From the IMG/VR virus record IMGVR_UViG_3300024343_000018, positions 1-55,412 of that record: a stretch of 55,412 bases of DNA, one strand, 5' to 3'. The DNA comes from a virus. Positions 10,252 to 53,026 of this stretch are shown piece after piece. A program made the position numbers and the translations under genes. Within the stretch, counting starts at the first letter, position 1. Each line of letters begins with the position of its first letter. The notes beneath the pieces were generated by a model. That model saw only the letters and a program-made list of their open reading frames with translations. It was not told the DNA's origin and ran no database searches.

Positions 10252-10429
10252 TGCAGTAATAAGAATAATTGTGCTTAAAGTATTTTACCACCTGAAAATT
10301 CGATTTGTCAAGTGGTTTTTCTACACCACACTTGGAGCAGACTCTAGTTTGGGGTGTTCCACTCGGACTTTTCTTCTTTACGGAGTGCCTTAAGTTCTTT
10401 ATATAAGATTTTGATTTGCTGATACGCAT
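10220..10429 (-). CDS. Zinc-finger-like reading frame overlapping the preceding gene
   Basis: The frame contains CSKCGVEKPLDKSNFQ...YYCNECNKPKP, a CxxC-x(n)-CxxC zinc-binding pattern. The only ATG that reaches it (10429) lies 85 bases inside the neighbouring gene 10344-10535. The zinc part begins just where that gene stops. It may therefore be the C-terminal domain of that protein, cut off by a frameshift, or read by programmed slippage. The zinc-finger residues look genuine; the gene model is uncertain. Confidence 0.4.
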   Translation of the reverse strand: MRISKSKSYIKNLRHSVKKKSPSGTPQTRVCSKCGVEKPLDKSNFQVVKYFKHNYSYYCNECNKPKPRD

Positions 10430-10536: not shown

Positions 10537-11137
10537 TTATTTTCTCTTTTTATAGGGTTTTAATGGTAATCTTCCAGATTTCCATTCTTTACCAGGACAT
10601 TCTACACTTCTTTTGTTAATTTGTCCATCATTCCACCATTTTGTTTCTTTATTATTATTATGAGTTCCTGGAAATGGTTTTCCTTTATGGACATTTCTTA
10701 TTTTTTCTTTAGTTTCTTCTGAATGAGTTTTACCTAACCAATTAGTGTTACCTTTTTTTGCTTCACCATTTTTTCTTCTATGTTCTTCTGAACGAGTTTT
10801 ACCTCTATTTGCATTTCCTATTTTATTTTTTGTTTCTTCACTTAATTTTCTACCAGCAACACCTCCACCAGTTCCACCATCTACAAGATTTCTCAATATA
10901 CCTGTTCCGTCATATTTTTTACCGAAAATGAAAATCATATAAATTTCGTGTTTATTAGCATCGTTAAGAGAAAGATTATCTTTTAGTATAATTCTTCTTT
11001 TTTCATTTGGAACAGAAACACTATGACCAAATTTAGTGTTCATTCTTCTATATTTTGATTTTTTTTTGATGCTTTCCCCTTCCAATATAATAAGGTGTGC
11101 CGTCTTCACGCAAATAAGCGTAAGTATAATATTCCAT
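10537..11137 (-). pseudogene. GIY-YIG homing endonuclease broken by a frameshift in a 9-A run
   Basis: The ATG at 11137 begins MEYYTYAYLREDGTPYYIGRGK, the GIY-YIG N-terminus shared with the genes at 18476 and 26814. The frame is lost at a run of nine A (11055-11063 region on the minus strand) and meets a stop soon after. Removing one A would join it to the second frame, which carries RRMNTKFGH...EKRRIILKDNLS, two or three NUMOD3 repeats (GRKLSEETKNKIGNAN) and a WWNDG...ECPGKEWKSGRLP tail. The result is an inactivated gene, a slippage-dependent gene or a sequencing error. Confidence 0.75.
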
Positions 11138-47455: not shown

Positions 47456-48027
47456 GAACGACCTCCCCATACAATTTCTGGGTATGCCTGAGAAACAAGT
47501 TCTTTTGTAATTTTATATTTCGTCTCAAGTTTTTTATCTTTTACCAAACACAGAATCTCTGCTTCTAAAGGATGAAGACCTTGTAGAACATTAATAAACA
47601 TAGTTTCTCTACGAAGAGAACTCAGACTATCATTACCACCCTTAATAAAATTATAAAACTTTGAATATTCTTTGCGAATTGATGAAAAACCCTGATCTTG
47701 TGATCCAAGTGAATTGGAACCAAGTTCACTCATTTTCCCTACGGCATCATCAATCTTCTCACTCAGGGTTCCACTAAATGAACCTTGCTCTCCCACACTT
47801 GAATAAGGAACAATACCTACTGGAAGAGCAGATGTCAAACTTTCATCAAAGTTCCAGATAAAAATTGCCCTGAGTGATGGGTCATTATATTTTTGTAGAA
47901 CTTCAACTTTTTTAATATTGGTTCTTTGCTTAGATACTAAATTCAGAACCTCAAAGGTAAAAGGATTTGCTGGCAAATCAATACTTACCGCTGGAGTTGT
48001 TTTTGCTTTTGTTTTTGTCGCTGTCAT
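47452..48027 (-). CDS. DUF6433-like conserved T4-type protein
   Basis: A 191-aa protein. SIDLPANPFTFEVLNLVSKQ R, DPSLRAIFIWNFDESLTSAL, LGSNSLGSQDQGFSSIRKEY and GLHPLEAEILCLVKDKKLET match a family conserved in T4-like phages (DUF6433-like). Function unknown; the strong conservation suggests a core role in DNA metabolism. Confidence 0.7.
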   Translation of the reverse strand: MTATKTKAKTTPAVSIDLPANPFTFEVLNLVSKQRTNIKKVEVLQKYNDPSLRAIFIWNFDESLTSALPVGIVPYSSVGEQGSFSGTLSEKIDDAVGKMSELGSNSLGSQDQGFSSIRKEYSKFYNFIKGGNDSLSSLRRETMFINVLQGLHPLEAEILCLVKDKKLETKYKITKELVSQAYPEIVWGGRS

Positions 48028-48059
48028 AATTGTTTAATATGTAATTATAATCTTAATGA

Positions 48060-48066
48060 TATTTAG
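48060..48066 (-). promoter_or_regulatory. Late-type promoter CTAAATA
   Basis: CTAAATATC, 33 bases upstream of the 48027 ATG. Confidence 0.5.
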
Positions 48067-48069
48067 AGT

Positions 48070-48315
48070 TTATTCTTCTTCATCATCATCTTCATCATCA
48101 ATACCATCAAAGTATCCTGGTTCAAATCTTACGGAAACGATTTCTTCGTCAATAAGATCGCCATCCTTATTATAAAACTCTGGATGATAGGCAATTTGCT
48201 TTGGTCCTTCCTGATGAGTCATCATATATTCTCTGCCGACCCAACCCAACATGAGACCCATTATAAAAAATAGTACGGTTAAGAATGAACCTATAACTAA
48301 ACTAGTTGCCAACAT
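48070..48315 (-). CDS. Membrane protein with acidic tail
   Basis: An 81-aa protein. A hydrophobic N-terminal segment (ATSLVIGSFLTVLFFIMGLM) is a single membrane span. The C-terminal 40 residues are strongly acidic (GIDDEDDDEEE). Predicted inner-membrane protein of unknown role. Confidence 0.6.
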   Translation of the reverse strand: MLATSLVIGSFLTVLFFIMGLMLGWVGREYMMTHQEGPKQIAYHPEFYNKDGDLIDEEIVSVRFEPGYFDGIDDEDDDEEE

Positions 48316-48332
48316 TTTTTTCTCCTGGGAAA

Positions 48333-48509
48333 CTACTCGACTTTCCTTGACTTTATCGAAAATTCAAGATAGATGGTTACTTCTCGTTTGAAGAATGAAA
48401 TCATCTTCTCAAATATAAGATGAAAAAGTTTAGGTTGTTTTCTTTTTCCTCCAGTAAGTATAAGTTCTACACCACGGTTCGGTGTTATATCATTATTTAT
48501 GTCTGACAT
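48333..48509 (-). CDS. Small basic hypothetical protein
   Basis: A 58-aa frame, MSDINNDITPNRGVELILTG..., with GKRKQPKLFHLIFEKMISFF and a basic end. Its ATG overlaps the glutaredoxin TAA (TAATG), which supports translation. Function unknown. Confidence 0.5.
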   Translation of the reverse strand: MSDINNDITPNRGVELILTGGKRKQPKLFHLIFEKMISFFKREVTIYLEFSIKSRKVE

Positions 48510-48745
48510 TATACCATTTGCTGTTCCTTCAGAAACTTAACGGTGTCAGTGCAACCGCCCAATCTCTTGTCGTCACAAATAACCTGTGGAAATGTGGAAT
48601 CTTCTCCAAACTCGGCATAGAACTCTTCTCTGGTGAAATCCTTATTAAGATTATACACCACAAAGTTATTTCCTGTCAACTCTAAAACTTGTTTAACTTT
48701 ATAGCAGAAAGGACAATCATCCTTAGAATATATGGTAAAGTTCAT
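48509..48745 (-). CDS. nrdC: Glutaredoxin
   Basis: A 78-aa protein with CPFC at 11-14, TFPQVICDDKRLGGCTD (cis-Pro and glutathione-binding GGC) and normal length. It is a dithiol glutaredoxin that can reduce ribonucleotide reductase. A near-late TATAAATT lies 20 bases upstream at 48766-48773. Confidence 0.88.
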   Translation of the reverse strand: MNFTIYSKDDCPFCYKVKQVLELTGNNFVVYNLNKDFTREEFYAEFGEDSTFPQVICDDKRLGGCTDTVKFLKEQQMV

Positions 48746-48776
48746 AATTGTTTAATATCTGTAATAATTTATATAA

Positions 48777-48873
48777 GAAAAAAGAGGAGATTTCTCTCCT
48801 CCTATGATACCACCTTACCTTTCTCACCACAGAAAGGGTCTTCATTCCCAAAGATACAAGGAATGCTGAAGAC
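48777..48873 (-). ncRNA. Candidate small RNA between the 48905 gene and glutaredoxin
   Basis: A consensus promoter (48880-48908) is followed within about 100 bases by a strong terminator (48778-48801), with no reading frame between. The region carries a second hairpin: GGTCTT and CATTCC pair with GGGAATG and AAGACC across about 48831-48875. A short structured RNA of roughly 95 bases would result. It may instead be a leader attenuating glutaredoxin expression. Confidence 0.45.
48778..48801 (-). terminator. Rho-independent terminator with GAAA loop
   Basis: GAGGAGA-GAAA-TCTCCTC followed by TTTTTT on the minus strand. Confidence 0.8.
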
Positions 48874-48879
48874 CTTTAT

Positions 48880-48908
48880 ATTATAAGGGATTTTGAGTCA
48901 GGTGTCAA
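48880..48908 (-). promoter_or_regulatory. Sigma70-type promoter TTGACA-17-TATAAT
   Basis: Perfect -35 (48903-48908), a 17-base spacer and TATAAT -10 (48880-48885). It overlaps the last codons of the 48905 gene. No gene starts before the terminator at 48801. Confidence 0.8.
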
Positions 48909-49450
48909 GTAGCAAAAATATTTACAAAGTCTTCTGGCAGATTACAAGACTCTGCAAGAGTTGTGAATTCGGCAATTAGTTCGGTTGGAACTGTGGTTGC
49001 GTTTTCAATTGCGGTCCAAGTATTCTCAAAATCTTGATAGTTTCCAGATTCAATAAGAAGTAGAGTTGCAGGAAGTGCCGTTGCGGCAACAGGTGCAATA
49101 CTAATTAATTGTCCAACAAAGGTATTGAGTAGAACAGAAGCAACAGCAGATTGCTTAAATGTATTCCAATCAGGACTACCGGGTGGTTGTGGTTGAGGTT
49201 CTGGTGCAGGAATGGTTGCAACGATTGCATCCCATTCTTCTCTGGTAAGAATCTCAAGACCAGGATCAACTTCGGTGATTAGAGTATTATCTGGAACCGT
49301 TGAAAGGCAATAATCAACTCCACGATCATCAGTCAACCAATAACGAACATCCAATCCTGAAATATTTGAATGACTTTGTAGAGGACCATTTTGACCTGGT
49401 TCAGTTAGATATTCTCCATTACGAACCCAATAATGCTTTAAGTATTGCAT
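48905..49450 (-). CDS. Tail fibre-associated or assembly protein, hypothetical
   Basis: A 181-aa protein. The N-terminus KHYWVRNGEYLTEPGQNGPL QS and GLDVRYWLTDDRGVDYCLST is like short proteins encoded next to fibre genes. A proline-rich hinge (PAPEPQPQPPGSPDW) leads to a helical C-terminal domain. Late-type promoter CTAAATA at 49478. It may be a fibre tip or fibre chaperone. Confidence 0.5.
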   Translation of the reverse strand: MQYLKHYWVRNGEYLTEPGQNGPLQSHSNISGLDVRYWLTDDRGVDYCLSTVPDNTLITEVDPGLEILTREEWDAIVATIPAPEPQPQPPGSPDWNTFKQSAVASVLLNTFVGQLISIAPVAATALPATLLLIESGNYQDFENTWTAIENATTVPTELIAEFTTLAESCNLPEDFVNIFAT

Positions 49451-49477
49451 TTCTCTAAACTTATAAGATCTTTGTAT

Positions 49478-49484
49478 TATTTAG
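49478..49484 (-). promoter_or_regulatory. Late-type promoter CTAAATA
   Basis: CTAAATAATAC, 28 bases upstream of the ATG at 49450, overlapping the oxygenase stop codon. Confidence 0.6.
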
Positions 49485-50155
49485 TTAACTCCATAAGTTT
49501 CTAAAAGTTCTTGATCTTCTTCTTCTTTTGTTCTTTCTCCTTTAACTCTAGCCCACGATACAATTGCCAATCTTCCAACTTCATTATGAATTTTAGTAAC
49601 TTCCCGAACGCCGTGCAAATAGTTTTGATCTGATGGAAAACACACAAGTGTCCCTGCTTTTGGTGGAACTTCTATACCAAGTTCAGGGAACATAAAGTTT
49701 CCACCATCAAAATCTTTACCGTTTCCATCATTACAAAAAAGTACTATGGATAATGATCTGTCTGTTGATTTTCTCCAAATCTTATCACCATTTGGAGCAA
49801 CCCATATAGACCTACCATCAATATGAGGTGCATAATGACCTCCTACACCATACCTCAAAAATTGTGGAACTTCACTATCCCACACTTCAATACCATAAAA
49901 AGGATTAATAATGTTTCTTACAAGGTTCTTAAAAAGATCTTCAATCTTTGGAAACAAAGGACCAAACTCAATGATTTGTGTGTCTCTTATATTTTTATCA
50001 ACAATCCAAGAAGTCTCACCTGTTTCATTGGTTTTGTCTGGGTCAAAGACTGATAGATCAGTTGTGCTTGAGTTTCTTGCGTGTTCTTGAAGTTCTTGTA
50101 GTGCTTCTTGTGTGAGGACTTGTGGTTCAATCAAGATGTTTGATAATAAATTCAT
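49481..50155 (-). CDS. 2OG-Fe(II) oxygenase, prolyl hydroxylase-like
   Basis: A 224-aa protein with iron ligands H111 and D113 (YAPHIDG) and H181 (NYLHGVREV), plus R195 for 2-oxoglutarate (GRLAIVSW); complete active site. It hydroxylates an unknown substrate, perhaps a virion protein. Placed between two fibre-related genes behind a late promoter, it may modify fibre residues. Confidence 0.8.
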   Translation of the reverse strand: MNLLSNILIEPQVLTQEALQELQEHARNSSTTDLSVFDPDKTNETGETSWIVDKNIRDTQIIEFGPLFPKIEDLFKNLVRNIINPFYGIEVWDSEVPQFLRYGVGGHYAPHIDGRSIWVAPNGDKIWRKSTDRSLSIVLFCNDGNGKDFDGGNFMFPELGIEVPPKAGTLVCFPSDQNYLHGVREVTKIHNEVGRLAIVSWARVKGERTKEEEDQELLETYGVN

Positions 50156-50176: not shown

Positions 50177-50184
50177 TATTTATG
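50177..50184 (-). promoter_or_regulatory. Late-type promoter CATAAATA
   Basis: CATAAATACTACG, 22 bases upstream of the oxygenase ATG at 50155. Confidence 0.6.
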
Positions 50185-53026
50185 AGGATCTTGCGTTGGT
50201 GGTTGCTGTCCCAAAAAAACTAGAATTTGTTAATGGACCTCTAATAGAAGCCAAAGATAAATCGTTAGAAAAATCTATTCTTTCCACTCTAGACGGATAA
50301 TTTCCTCCTTGTTGTCCTGAACTAAACCAACCATAAGATTGATTACCAGTAGCAGCATTGGCATTTCTACCAAAATTAAAATTACCTCGCAATGATGCTA
50401 ATGCAGTATCATTTGAATAATCTACTCTTTCTACAGAAGATATATTACTATATCCACCACCAAAATATCCAAAGTTAGAGTTTCCGGTTGCAGATATATT
50501 ATATCTAGCTAAATTAAGTGTTCCTCTTACAAGAGCAGTTGCAGTATCGTTAGAATAATTTACTCTATCGACTCTAGAAATATCTCCAGAAATATAAGCA
50601 AAAAAGTCTGTAGAAGTACAACCACTGGTATTTCTAGTGGTTATCATTCTTCCTCTTTGTAAAGTTAATCCACTATCATTTGAAAAATCTAGACGAGTAA
50701 ATAAACTAGTATTTGCAAAAACATATCCATAAAAATTATTTGAAAATCCTCCTCCTTGTTCTCCAGTAATGGTTATTAAAAATCTTGCATTTGAAGTATC
50801 ATTTGAATAATCTATGCGGTCCATATTTGTACTACCTTGTCCTCCAGAAATATACCCAAAATTTTGATTTGATAGACCAACTGTCCATCTTCTTGCAATA
50901 CTTAGAGGGCCTCTTGTCGATGCTATTGATGTATCATTAGAGTAATCTATGCGATTTATAATTGTGGTTACAGGTCCATTAGAACCACAAGCATTAAAAT
51001 ACCCATAAGACCCTAATACTCTCTTAAATGGCATATTGGAACTTAAAGTATTAGAATCATTAAATACTATCTGCTTCTGGAAGACCTCTGGAAGTGGATT
51101 GGTGAAGTAAATTGGAGCACCTCCGTATCCTAATGGAGAGGTTGCTGCACCAGAAGATTTAGCAACTGGTAGTGGTCCTCTCACCGATGCGATTGCAGTA
51201 TCGTTTGAGTAGTTGATGCGGTCTGTTGTTGAGTAATAAATTGGTGATCCAGAAGGGGTAAATCCTCCACCAATATATCCAAAATTATTATTCCCAGTTA
51301 CAGCAGAGGATCCTCTACCAGAACTCAATGGACCTCGTACCGATGATGTTTGTGTATCATTTGAATAATCTAAACGATCTACTGAAGATACTCCAGGAGT
51401 TCCTCCACCAAAGTAACCAAAGTTTTGATTTCCAACTGCTATATTATCATATCTTGCATTTATACCCCCTCTACTCAAAGTATTTAATGTATCATTTGAA
51501 TAGTCAAGTCTATCAACAACAGGAACTACGACACTTGAAAACCCACCACCAAAGTAACCAAAGTTTTGATTTCCTGTTGCTGAAAAATCTCTTCTTGCTA
51601 GTGTCAATAAACATCTATTGGATGCATTTGCACTATCATTTGAATAGTCAATACGATCTATTGTAGAACTATTTCCTGGAGCATAACCACCCCCAAAATA
51701 CCCAAAGTTAGAATTACCAGTTGCAGCACCTCTATTTCTTGCTATACTTAATGGTCCTCTAACAACTGTATTTTGAGTGTCCGATGAAAATTCAATTCTA
51801 TCGATAGTGCTTGAAGTTGCTGGATATGCAGTTGCCCCATTATAATATCCAAAATTATTATTACTAACACTTTTTACATAAATCTTTGCGCTACTCAAAG
51901 AACTTCGAACACTTGCAGTTGCTGTATCATTCGCATAATCTACCTTATCAATTGTTGCAAGACTATTCGTTCCATCGGTTCCACCACCAAAATACCCAGC
52001 ATTTGGGACGGTTGGGAATGTGAGGTTTGATGCGAAGGCAGAGTTTTTAGCACCACCGAAAGATGCAGAGGAGGTTGCTGCAATTGTAAGATCAACATTT
52101 GATAATGGTCCACGAACAGAAGCGGTTACTAAATCATTGCTATAATCTATTCTATCAACAGTAGAAACTGCTTGACCTTGAGAACTTGTAGTAGATCCCC
52201 CAACAGAGTAACCAAAATTAGAATTTCCTGTAGAACCAGGCCACCAAAATTTTGGAAAACTTAAAGATCCTCTAATTGATAATAATGCAGTATCATTAGC
52301 ATAATTTAAACGATGTGATGAAGATGTTCCCCAACCTGTTAAAAAATATCCAAAATTATTATTTCCAGTCGCACTAAAACTAAAACTAGAATTTTGTATA
52401 TTACCTCTAGATAATGCTGTTGCACTATCATTAGAATAATCTATACGGTCTACTGTAGATCCTCCAGATGGGGCTTGTCCGCTCCCACCAAAATAACCAA
52501 AGTTGGAGTTTCCTGTTGCAAGTATACCTCTTGATATTGTTAAAGGACCTCTAATTGATGCTGTGGTATTATCATTGGAATAATTTATTCTTTCTGTGGT
52601 AGAAATATATGCAGGTGTAGCACTAGTAATTCCCCCCGCAATATATCCAAAGTTAGAGTTTCCTGTTGCTCCTGTATAGGATCTTCCAATTGTTAAACCC
52701 CCCCTAGATAAAATATTAGTATCATTAGAATAATCAATACGTTTAATATCCGTTATATAATTAAATCCAGATTTATTACCTCCCATAATATATCCAAAAT
52801 TAGAATTGCCTGCCCCACCACTAAAATATTGATTTACTGATGTTCTTCTATTTGTAGTTGTTGTATCGTTTGAGTAATCAAGTCTATTTAATGGTCCACC
52901 AATTCCTAGAAAATACCCATATTCCCTATAAGTCTCTCTGGTTCTCTCAGGAACTTCGCCCAGTAACTGCTTCTTGCGAAAATCACTCAAAGAAAATATT
53001 TTCTGTATAGTTTTATTGTCCGCCAT
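50180..53026 (-). CDS. Tail fibre with about 18 kelch-like repeats
   Basis: A 948-aa protein. The N-terminus KTIQKIFSLSDFRKKQLLGE resembles the attachment end of cyanophage fibres. The remainder is about 18 copies of a 45-50 residue unit (R-(I/L)-DYSNDTxxxxxRG...xxATGNxNFGYFxGG), a beta-propeller or kelch-like pattern. It is expected to bind a host surface glycan. Late promoter at 53049. The repeats are similar at the DNA level and could recombine. Confidence 0.75.
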   Translation of the reverse strand: MADNKTIQKIFSLSDFRKKQLLGEVPERTRETYREYGYFLGIGGPLNRLDYSNDTTTTNRRTSVNQYFSGGAGNSNFGYIMGGNKSGFNYITDIKRIDYSNDTNILSRGGLTIGRSYTGATGNSNFGYIAGGITSATPAYISTTERINYSNDNTTASIRGPLTISRGILATGNSNFGYFGGSGQAPSGGSTVDRIDYSNDSATALSRGNIQNSSFSFSATGNNNFGYFLTGWGTSSSHRLNYANDTALLSIRGSLSFPKFWWPGSTGNSNFGYSVGGSTTSSQGQAVSTVDRIDYSNDLVTASVRGPLSNVDLTIAATSSASFGGAKNSAFASNLTFPTVPNAGYFGGGTDGTNSLATIDKVDYANDTATASVRSSLSSAKIYVKSVSNNNFGYYNGATAYPATSSTIDRIEFSSDTQNTVVRGPLSIARNRGAATGNSNFGYFGGGYAPGNSSTIDRIDYSNDSANASNRCLLTLARRDFSATGNQNFGYFGGGFSSVVVPVVDRLDYSNDTLNTLSRGGINARYDNIAVGNQNFGYFGGGTPGVSSVDRLDYSNDTQTSSVRGPLSSGRGSSAVTGNNNFGYIGGGFTPSGSPIYYSTTDRINYSNDTAIASVRGPLPVAKSSGAATSPLGYGGAPIYFTNPLPEVFQKQIVFNDSNTLSSNMPFKRVLGSYGYFNACGSNGPVTTIINRIDYSNDTSIASTRGPLSIARRWTVGLSNQNFGYISGGQGSTNMDRIDYSNDTSNARFLITITGEQGGGFSNNFYGYVFANTSLFTRLDFSNDSGLTLQRGRMITTRNTSGCTSTDFFAYISGDISRVDRVNYSNDTATALVRGTLNLARYNISATGNSNFGYFGGGYSNISSVERVDYSNDTALASLRGNFNFGRNANAATGNQSYGWFSSGQQGGNYPSRVERIDFSNDLSLASIRGPLTNSSFFGTATTNARSS

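Follow-up and report, generated by a model that had tools for sequence, protein, structure and literature searches.

A predicted small RNA of cyanophages, encoded between a promoter and a terminator of its own

The stretch of DNA that we analysed (the window) comprises 55,412 nucleotides of the IMG/VR virus record IMGVR_UViG_3300024343_000018. Upstream of a glutaredoxin gene on its minus strand, an earlier note had pointed to a candidate small RNA of about 95 bases between a near-perfect promoter and a strong terminator, and had proposed that it might be either a regulatory RNA of late infection or an attenuated leader of the glutaredoxin gene. The features of this locus are as follows.

48880..48908, minus strand: promoter, TTGACA-17-TATAAT, sigma-70-type and probably early; 12 of 12 consensus positions.
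48778..48874, minus strand: predicted small RNA of about 97 nt, its start placed by the spacing from the -10 box and its end by the U run.
48837..48874, minus strand: hairpin 1 (predicted), with a lower stem GGUCUUC/GAAGACC, an asymmetric internal loop, an upper stem and an apical loop.
48858-48850, minus strand: apical loop of hairpin 1, UGUAUCUUU in the window; the family consensus is UGURWCUUU.
48818..48837, minus strand: hairpin 2 (predicted), CCUUUC/GAAAGG, with the loop GUGGUG (48830-48825).
48804..48817, minus strand: unpaired linker of 14 nt, in which GGUGGU (48814-48809) repeats the GUGGU of the hairpin-2 loop.
48778..48803, minus strand: intrinsic terminator with a 9-bp stem and a 4-nt loop (together 48803-48782) and a run of six U whose last base is 48778.
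48767..48773, minus strand: TATAAAT, the T4-type late motif of the glutaredoxin gene, outside the RNA.
48509..48745, minus strand: glutaredoxin gene (nrdC-like; Pfam PF00462, E 1.8e-12), apparently a separate transcription unit.

The promoter that had been called near-perfect (minus strand, 48908-48880) in fact matches the consensus at every position, and the terminator, which had been called strong, has a 9-bp stem, a 4-nt loop and six U. The window contains five perfect promoters (with spacers of 16-18 nt), compared to a mean of 0.12 in first-order Markov sequences; a single one has a terminator downstream of it, an arrangement that occurred in none of 200 first-order Markov sequences. The 5' arm of hairpin 1, GGUCUUC, begins after 5 nt from the -10 box, with its first base at 48874, and the predicted length of the RNA is now about 97 rather than 95 nt. 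The interval 48873-48778 folds with -33.7 kcal/mol, compared to a mean of -24.5 (sd 3.3) for shuffled sequences (z -2.75), and 4 of the 200 shuffles folded as well or better. The hairpins ahead of the terminator number two (48874-48837 and 48837-48818) and not one. Note that a second perfect promoter, with an 18-nt spacer, lies within the glutaredoxin ORF (48679-48650, minus strand), and that another (47055-47027, minus strand), situated 21 nt upstream of a 47-codon ORF, overlaps a terminator-like hairpin (47064-47039) whose apex holds the -35 box. (An exact second copy of the terminator, GGAGAGAAATCTCCTCTTTTTT (22 nt), is found at 41194-41173 on the minus strand, directly behind the end of another ORF.)

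Homologues were sought with covariance models, the first of which (R1) was made from 26 sequences; its seed rows had been chosen by a motif scan that required GTCTT and GGTGGT. The match to the window element itself spans 48875-48777 and scores 100.3 bits with R1 and 98.8 bits with R2. In 82 sources R1 gave 49 strong matches, of 62-118 bits, the next best match being one of 18.5 bits. These 49 were the window, the phage S-SRM01 and 47 of 80 IMG/VR loci that had been fetched solely by similarity of their glutaredoxin genes; in the sequence retrieved for the other 33 glutaredoxin relatives no RNA was present, L019 among these being short of the upstream sequence needed for judging. Because it was the model and not a pattern that decided there, the 47 loci found by glutaredoxin form the fairest sample, and among the loci found in this way there was no class of relatives with diverged loops scoring between 62 and 18.5 bits. 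Two search patterns were also used, one fixing GTCTT, the hairpin-1 loop and AAGAY, the other fixing the hairpin-1 loop and GTGGTG. Of 63 pattern-found loci, 58 yielded at least 59 strong matches between them, further such loci at least 47 (in 47 of 53 IMG/VR loci and in none of 9 GenBank loci), and a last batch of loci at least 11 (in 11 of 12). Altogether there were at least 166 strong matches in the window, S-SRM01 and IMG/VR contigs, some of them sharing contigs; after collapsing loci identical in the 30 nt upstream, the RNA and the 60 nt downstream, at least 108 unique loci were left.

S-SRM01 is a Synechococcus phage of the Kyanoviridae from a Singapore reservoir, with Synechococcus sp. 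KCZYC6 as its host, and the promoter-RNA-terminator unit is present ahead of its glutaredoxin gene; hairpin 1, whose base is the predicted RNA start, begins there at about position 10977 of the record, on the plus strand. When R2 was run under stricter filters on 17 whole GenBank records with similarity to the glutaredoxin or the peptidase, only S-SRM01 was matched strongly (91.6 bits; next best 22.4 bits). Six members, the window element among them, served as BLASTN queries, and S-SRM01 was likewise the sole real relative found, the other matches being short. (One BLASTN match, to ACG-2014g, was rejected as a relative; it corresponds to the promoter region before gp55.) The exact hairpin-1 pattern, which diverged copies would escape, occurred in 15 stretches of a bacterial and archaeal genome set (84,980 species, a single genome each); the best of these scored 19.3 bits, and none is titled cyanobacterial. 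Three contigs (3300008108_000191, 3300008113_000332 and 3300042945_000878) carry two copies of the RNA each. Some copies look decayed, because a group of five or more identical copies (L131:2399-2500 with four RNAs that do not differ from it) is without a promoter and a truncated copy (L108:12584-12651) is without a terminator; both are probably decayed duplicates.

The earlier note had proposed conservation of the hairpins between related phages as a check, and this check came out in favour of the RNA. An alignment of 100 matches, 92 of them distinct (A5), was fitted to the modelled structure of 23 pairs; standard pairs make up 98.1% of its pair cells, a figure that, like the other pairing figures from A5, favours the modelled structure because the alignment was fitted to it. 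Two-sided changes were found in 15 of the 23 pairs, where shuffles gave 8.4 and slid controls 2-9, and the covariation score was 0.391, compared to 0.222 in shuffles and 0.146-0.189 in slid controls. In hairpin 2, whose stem was fixed by no pattern, all six pairs show two-sided changes and 99.2% of cells are paired; in the terminator, the sequence of whose stem varies among homologues while its pairing is kept, six of seven modelled pairs show such changes and 95.8% of cells are paired. When all 4,808 column pairs were compared with one another, structural pairs took covariation ranks 1, 2, 3, 5, 6, 10 and 11, with the hairpin-1 pairs 8-37 and 18-30 at ranks 2 and 3; the non-structural column pairs at ranks 4, 7, 8 and 9 show no standard pairing. 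Even in the structure that RNAalifold itself derived from a MAFFT alignment (A1), hairpin 1 shows changes from C-G to G-C and from C-G to U-A. RNAalifold did not predict hairpin 2 on A1, in which MAFFT had misaligned the arms of that hairpin. Note that columns 23-28 hold a possible pair within the hairpin-1 loop that may reflect one clade. (A pseudoknot of AACUU with GAGUU was rejected; by eye, it fails in members with the loop UAUCUUU.)

The lengths of the hairpins differ by single bases between members. In A5 the loop of hairpin 1 is UGURWCUUU, the UGGUG of the hairpin-2 loop is constant to at least 97%, and each position of the linker GGUGG is kept to 75% or more; this invariance of the loops arises in part through the way members were selected, because the patterns fixed the hairpin-1 loop, the second of them also GTGGTG, and the seed scan GTCTT and GGTGGT. 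By eye, 24 of the 26 A1 rows, which were chosen by the scan requiring GGTGGT, have GUGGU in both the hairpin-2 loop and the linker; the short-form rows L012 and L058, which look like deletions between the two copies, have it once. Taken as a whole, the alignments provide strong comparative evidence that selection probably acts on the RNA itself.

Among 108 unique loci in the matches listed, no coding frame is conserved. In the window, contrary to the claim that no open frame lies between promoter and terminator, a 42-codon TTG frame on the minus strand (48851-48723) and a plus-strand TTG frame of 65 codons cross the interval of the RNA. These observations bear on the idea that the transcript is the leader of a very small protein whose frame starts in the 3' arm of hairpin 1. 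Some members do have a frame of up to 44 codons there, but an ATG in this arm is found in only 65 of 108 unique loci and the resulting frames range from 8 to 44 codons (followed no further than 60 nt beyond the RNA; both figures among the matches listed), and the single-base variation in hairpin lengths speaks against coding as well. We consider this explanation extremely improbable.

The RNA keeps a fixed position with respect to its promoter. Of the 105 unique loci with enough upstream sequence among the matches listed, 75 have a promoter matching at 12 of 12 positions and 21 one matching at 11 of 12, with weaker scores in the others (10/12 in seven, 9/12 in one and 8/12 in one). A spacer of 17 nt together with exactly 6 nt between the -10 box and the first modelled pair (model position 3) was found in 103 of these 105, and this geometry is seen in glutaredoxin and other gene contexts alike.

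The position with respect to glutaredoxin is less regular. Among the matches listed, the gene lies at most 60 nt downstream of the RNA in 86 of 108 unique loci and about 680 nt away in two, and no glutaredoxin is found beside the RNA in 20 (19 of 107 if L281 is left out). (Downstream sequence is short in some of these: L281 ends 21 nt past the RNA, L181 about 210 nt and L209 about 160 nt past it.) For the 93 pattern-found unique loci listed, the corresponding numbers are 71 near, two distant and 19 without the gene, with one locus too short. Thirteen of the loci without glutaredoxin, among the matches listed, have a peptidase gene downstream of the RNA, at a distance of 33-87 nt in 11 of them and of 172 and 393 nt in the other two; the one such gene tested, in L107, is phrog_459. 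Another of the loci without glutaredoxin, L125 (7021-7948), has downstream of the terminator a cluster of small ORFs and three tRNA genes with a perfect promoter of its own. (By eye, one of the small ORFs is Phd-like.)

These contexts allow us to weigh the possibility, raised by the earlier note, that the element is a cis-acting attenuator or riboswitch that controls the downstream gene through conditional termination. Attenuators are built in this way, with a terminator immediately ahead of a gene, the gene is glutaredoxin in most of the loci listed, whether or not they were found by pattern, and the kept loop of hairpin 1 could serve as a ligand site. However, a TATAAAT motif of its own lies between the terminator and glutaredoxin in 84 of the 86 loci that have the gene within 60 nt of the RNA (among the matches listed), and by this motif glutaredoxin appears to be a late gene driven by a promoter of its own. 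The same motif is present in 22 of 32 readable glutaredoxin loci that have no RNA, with a looser form in three more. In both loci where glutaredoxin is some 680 nt away, an inserted ORF parts the RNA from the gene; in the one tested (L166:4705-5343) it is a gene for an HNH endonuclease (phrog_953) inserted between the late motif and glutaredoxin. Together with the peptidase and L125 contexts and the 33 glutaredoxin relatives in whose fetched sequence the RNA is missing, these findings leave little room for an attenuated leader, and no alternative antiterminator helix is prominent among the covarying pairs listed. Neither the constant upstream position nor the dependence on read-through that a glutaredoxin attenuator or riboswitch requires was found, and we regard such a role as very unlikely. 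Instead, the RNA looks like a transcription unit separate from glutaredoxin.

Another explanation would be that the promoter-terminator pair acts as an insulator, which blocks read-through or occludes its neighbours and makes an RNA that has no role. The strength of the terminator would suit such a function, as would the place of the element between larger ORFs in the contexts listed, apart from frames that merely run through it. For this purpose, however, a bare terminator would suffice, and the kept loop sequences and the compensatory changes in both hairpins are left unexplained; we give this explanation hardly any weight.

Three features expected of a stand-alone phage-encoded sRNA were found: the RNA is tied to its own promoter and not to a neighbouring gene, it has its own intrinsic terminator, and it codes for no conserved protein among the matches listed. 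By computation, fold, promoter and terminator are conserved, and the unit is independent of the gene downstream. The small RNA that had been suspected thus stands as a predicted unit kept across many phage contigs and several gene contexts. Judging from sequence comparisons, it very probably belongs to a genuine family of structured cyanophage RNAs absent from Rfam 15, and is very probably a new viral RNA of the phage sRNA kind.

As regards timing, the RNA is probably expressed early. According to a review, early genes of cyanomyoviruses have host sigma-70-type promoters and the late motif is NATAAATA (PMC2984593); two papers use TATAAAT as the late motif of T4-like cyanophages (PMC2984593, PMC3037559). 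The proposal of a role in late infection is less likely than early expression because the promoter is of the sigma-70 type. Against this it may be held that, as described for the cyanophage Ma-LMM01, sigma-70-like promoters occur in all phases, late genes included (PMC5780444); for S-RSM4, the review states that early motifs of the sigma-70 type were not found (PMC2984593).

In searches of Rfam with E values of up to 5, the best match in the window (48000-49600) was PYLIS_5, with 24.3 bits against a threshold of 60, and six other loci searched at the gathering threshold gave tRNAs only. The GGUGGUA of the window RNA resembles the T-box core; no T-box was matched in the same interval at E values of up to 5, and the window RNA has short hairpins only. 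Sponge RNAs of the CsrB/RsmY type act through repeated GGA motifs. The element resembles them in having a repeated G-rich motif, but this motif is GUGGU rather than GGA and is present in two copies at most.

The published cyanophage non-coding RNAs considered here are mostly leader elements, with one antisense RNA and one sRNA predicted by Rfam. CfrI of S-PM2 is a non-coding RNA expressed during infection (PMC2984593, PMC12197685); it is about 225 nt long and lies antisense to two genes, psbA and that of a homing endonuclease, whereas the element is predicted to be about 97 nt long, is intergenic and has a promoter and a terminator to itself. PhotoRC-II, wcaG, manA and glnA (RF01717, RF01761, RF01745 and RF01739) are structured RNAs of T4-like cyanophages (PMC2864571, PMC9964418) which, unlike the window element, are described in those papers as cis-regulatory for metabolic or photosynthesis genes; none of the four was matched in the window (48000-49600) or in the six other loci. 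The abiF RNA (RF03085), reported in cyanophage S-CREM1, is annotated as an sRNA; cmscan gave no match to it in 48000-49600 at E values of up to 5. No description of the window RNA was found in open-access literature as far as its searchable text extends, and a term search of the S-SRM01 paper (PMC8557907) returned no mention of a promoter, a small RNA, a terminator or glutaredoxin in the text covered. The element would thus add to the RNAs listed above a compact promoter-RNA-terminator cassette kept across many uncultured cyanophage contigs.

We consider it likely that the element is an independent, probably early, trans-acting phage sRNA that works through its loops. Transcription by the polymerase of the host, probably early in infection, would start from the near-consensus sigma-70 promoter and yield an RNA with its 5' end at the base of hairpin 1 and its 3' end at its own intrinsic terminator, and this RNA would act in trans as a regulator; transcription, early timing and action in trans are what we infer. 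The contact sites are probably UGURWCUUU in the loop of hairpin 1, UGGUG in that of hairpin 2 and GGUGG, which is less strictly kept, in the linker, because these stay while the stems of hairpin 2 and the terminator drift. The G-rich loops may pair with sites of the ACCACC/CACCAC type in mRNAs, most likely those of the host.

The same contrast between kept loops, in both hairpins, and drifting stems, in hairpin 2 and the terminator, would also be expected if the RNA were a decoy or sponge that binds a host or phage protein through the loops and the two copies of GUGGU, which most rows of A1 possess. By analogy with known sponges, we hold such a role possible but doubtful: no protein partner is known, we cannot name a protein that recognizes GUGGU, and the loop of hairpin 1 is unrelated to this motif. 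As the contact that the loops make, pairing with mRNA is somewhat more probable, with protein binding nearly as likely. A more specific and rather unlikely version is that the RNA serves in early host takeover or counter-defence as a decoy that presents its loops, occupying either an RNA-binding protein of the host or a defence component gated by RNA, and that the promoter-RNA-terminator cassette is mobile between positions in phage genomes. That such occupancy would take place through the two GUGGU sites and the hairpin-1 loop is, in our estimate, just as unlikely.

Returning to the preferred reading of a trans-acting sRNA that pairs with mRNAs, we scanned predicted start regions (374 in S-SRM01, 278 in a further phage, G001, and 80 in the window, with ORFs called crudely) for duplexes with three segments of the RNA per phage, using 10 shuffles for each. 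Four of the nine best duplexes lay beyond the range of their shuffles. For hairpin 2 the best duplex was -21.9 in S-SRM01 (shuffled bests -18.3 to -13.9), -20.2 in G001 (-19.2 to -14.1) and -15.8 in the window (-15.0 to -12.0); for hairpin 1 it was -20.7 in G001 (-19.3 to -14.5). That hairpin 2 surpassed all ten shuffles in three phages fits a pairing role, but the best sites differ between the phages. The linker can be matched to ATGACNACCACC of a recurring small ORF, a match that rests on repeated ACC codons, and hairpins with a CACCAC loop looked for elsewhere gave no further case recognized at a start codon.

The strongest duplex site is the leader GTTCACACCACTGAAC-C-ATG of two S-SRM01 genes, with a pairing of 14 nt that includes one G-U. 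As a general target this leader was rejected: with up to three mismatches it was found in S-SRM01 alone among 40 RNA-bearing records, mostly fragments, and is missing from the 39 others, and the RNA was detected in none of 26 leader-bearing contigs searched, 24 of which have it positioned at a start codon, by the same model that detects S-SRM01. Apart from any role as a target, it appears to be a conserved leader. In 32 IMG/VR stretches the 16-mer GTTCACACCACTGAAC occurs at 35 places, at 27 of which it lies 1-2 nt before an ATG, where a small hairpin is possible. (The S-SRM01 sites are L293:9333-9348 and 10317-10332, that is, S-SRM01 89333 and 90317; further stretches with the leader are L315, L317-L322, L326-L328, L330, L332-L336 and L338-L345.)

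Because S-SRM01, grown on Synechococcus sp. KCZYC6, is a cultured carrier of the element, expression of the RNA, its timing and its partner are directly testable. Elsewhere in the window, a 948-aa ORF on the minus strand (50180-53026) contains many repeats of the type NSNFGYFGGG...RIDYSNDT and appears fibre-like by eye.
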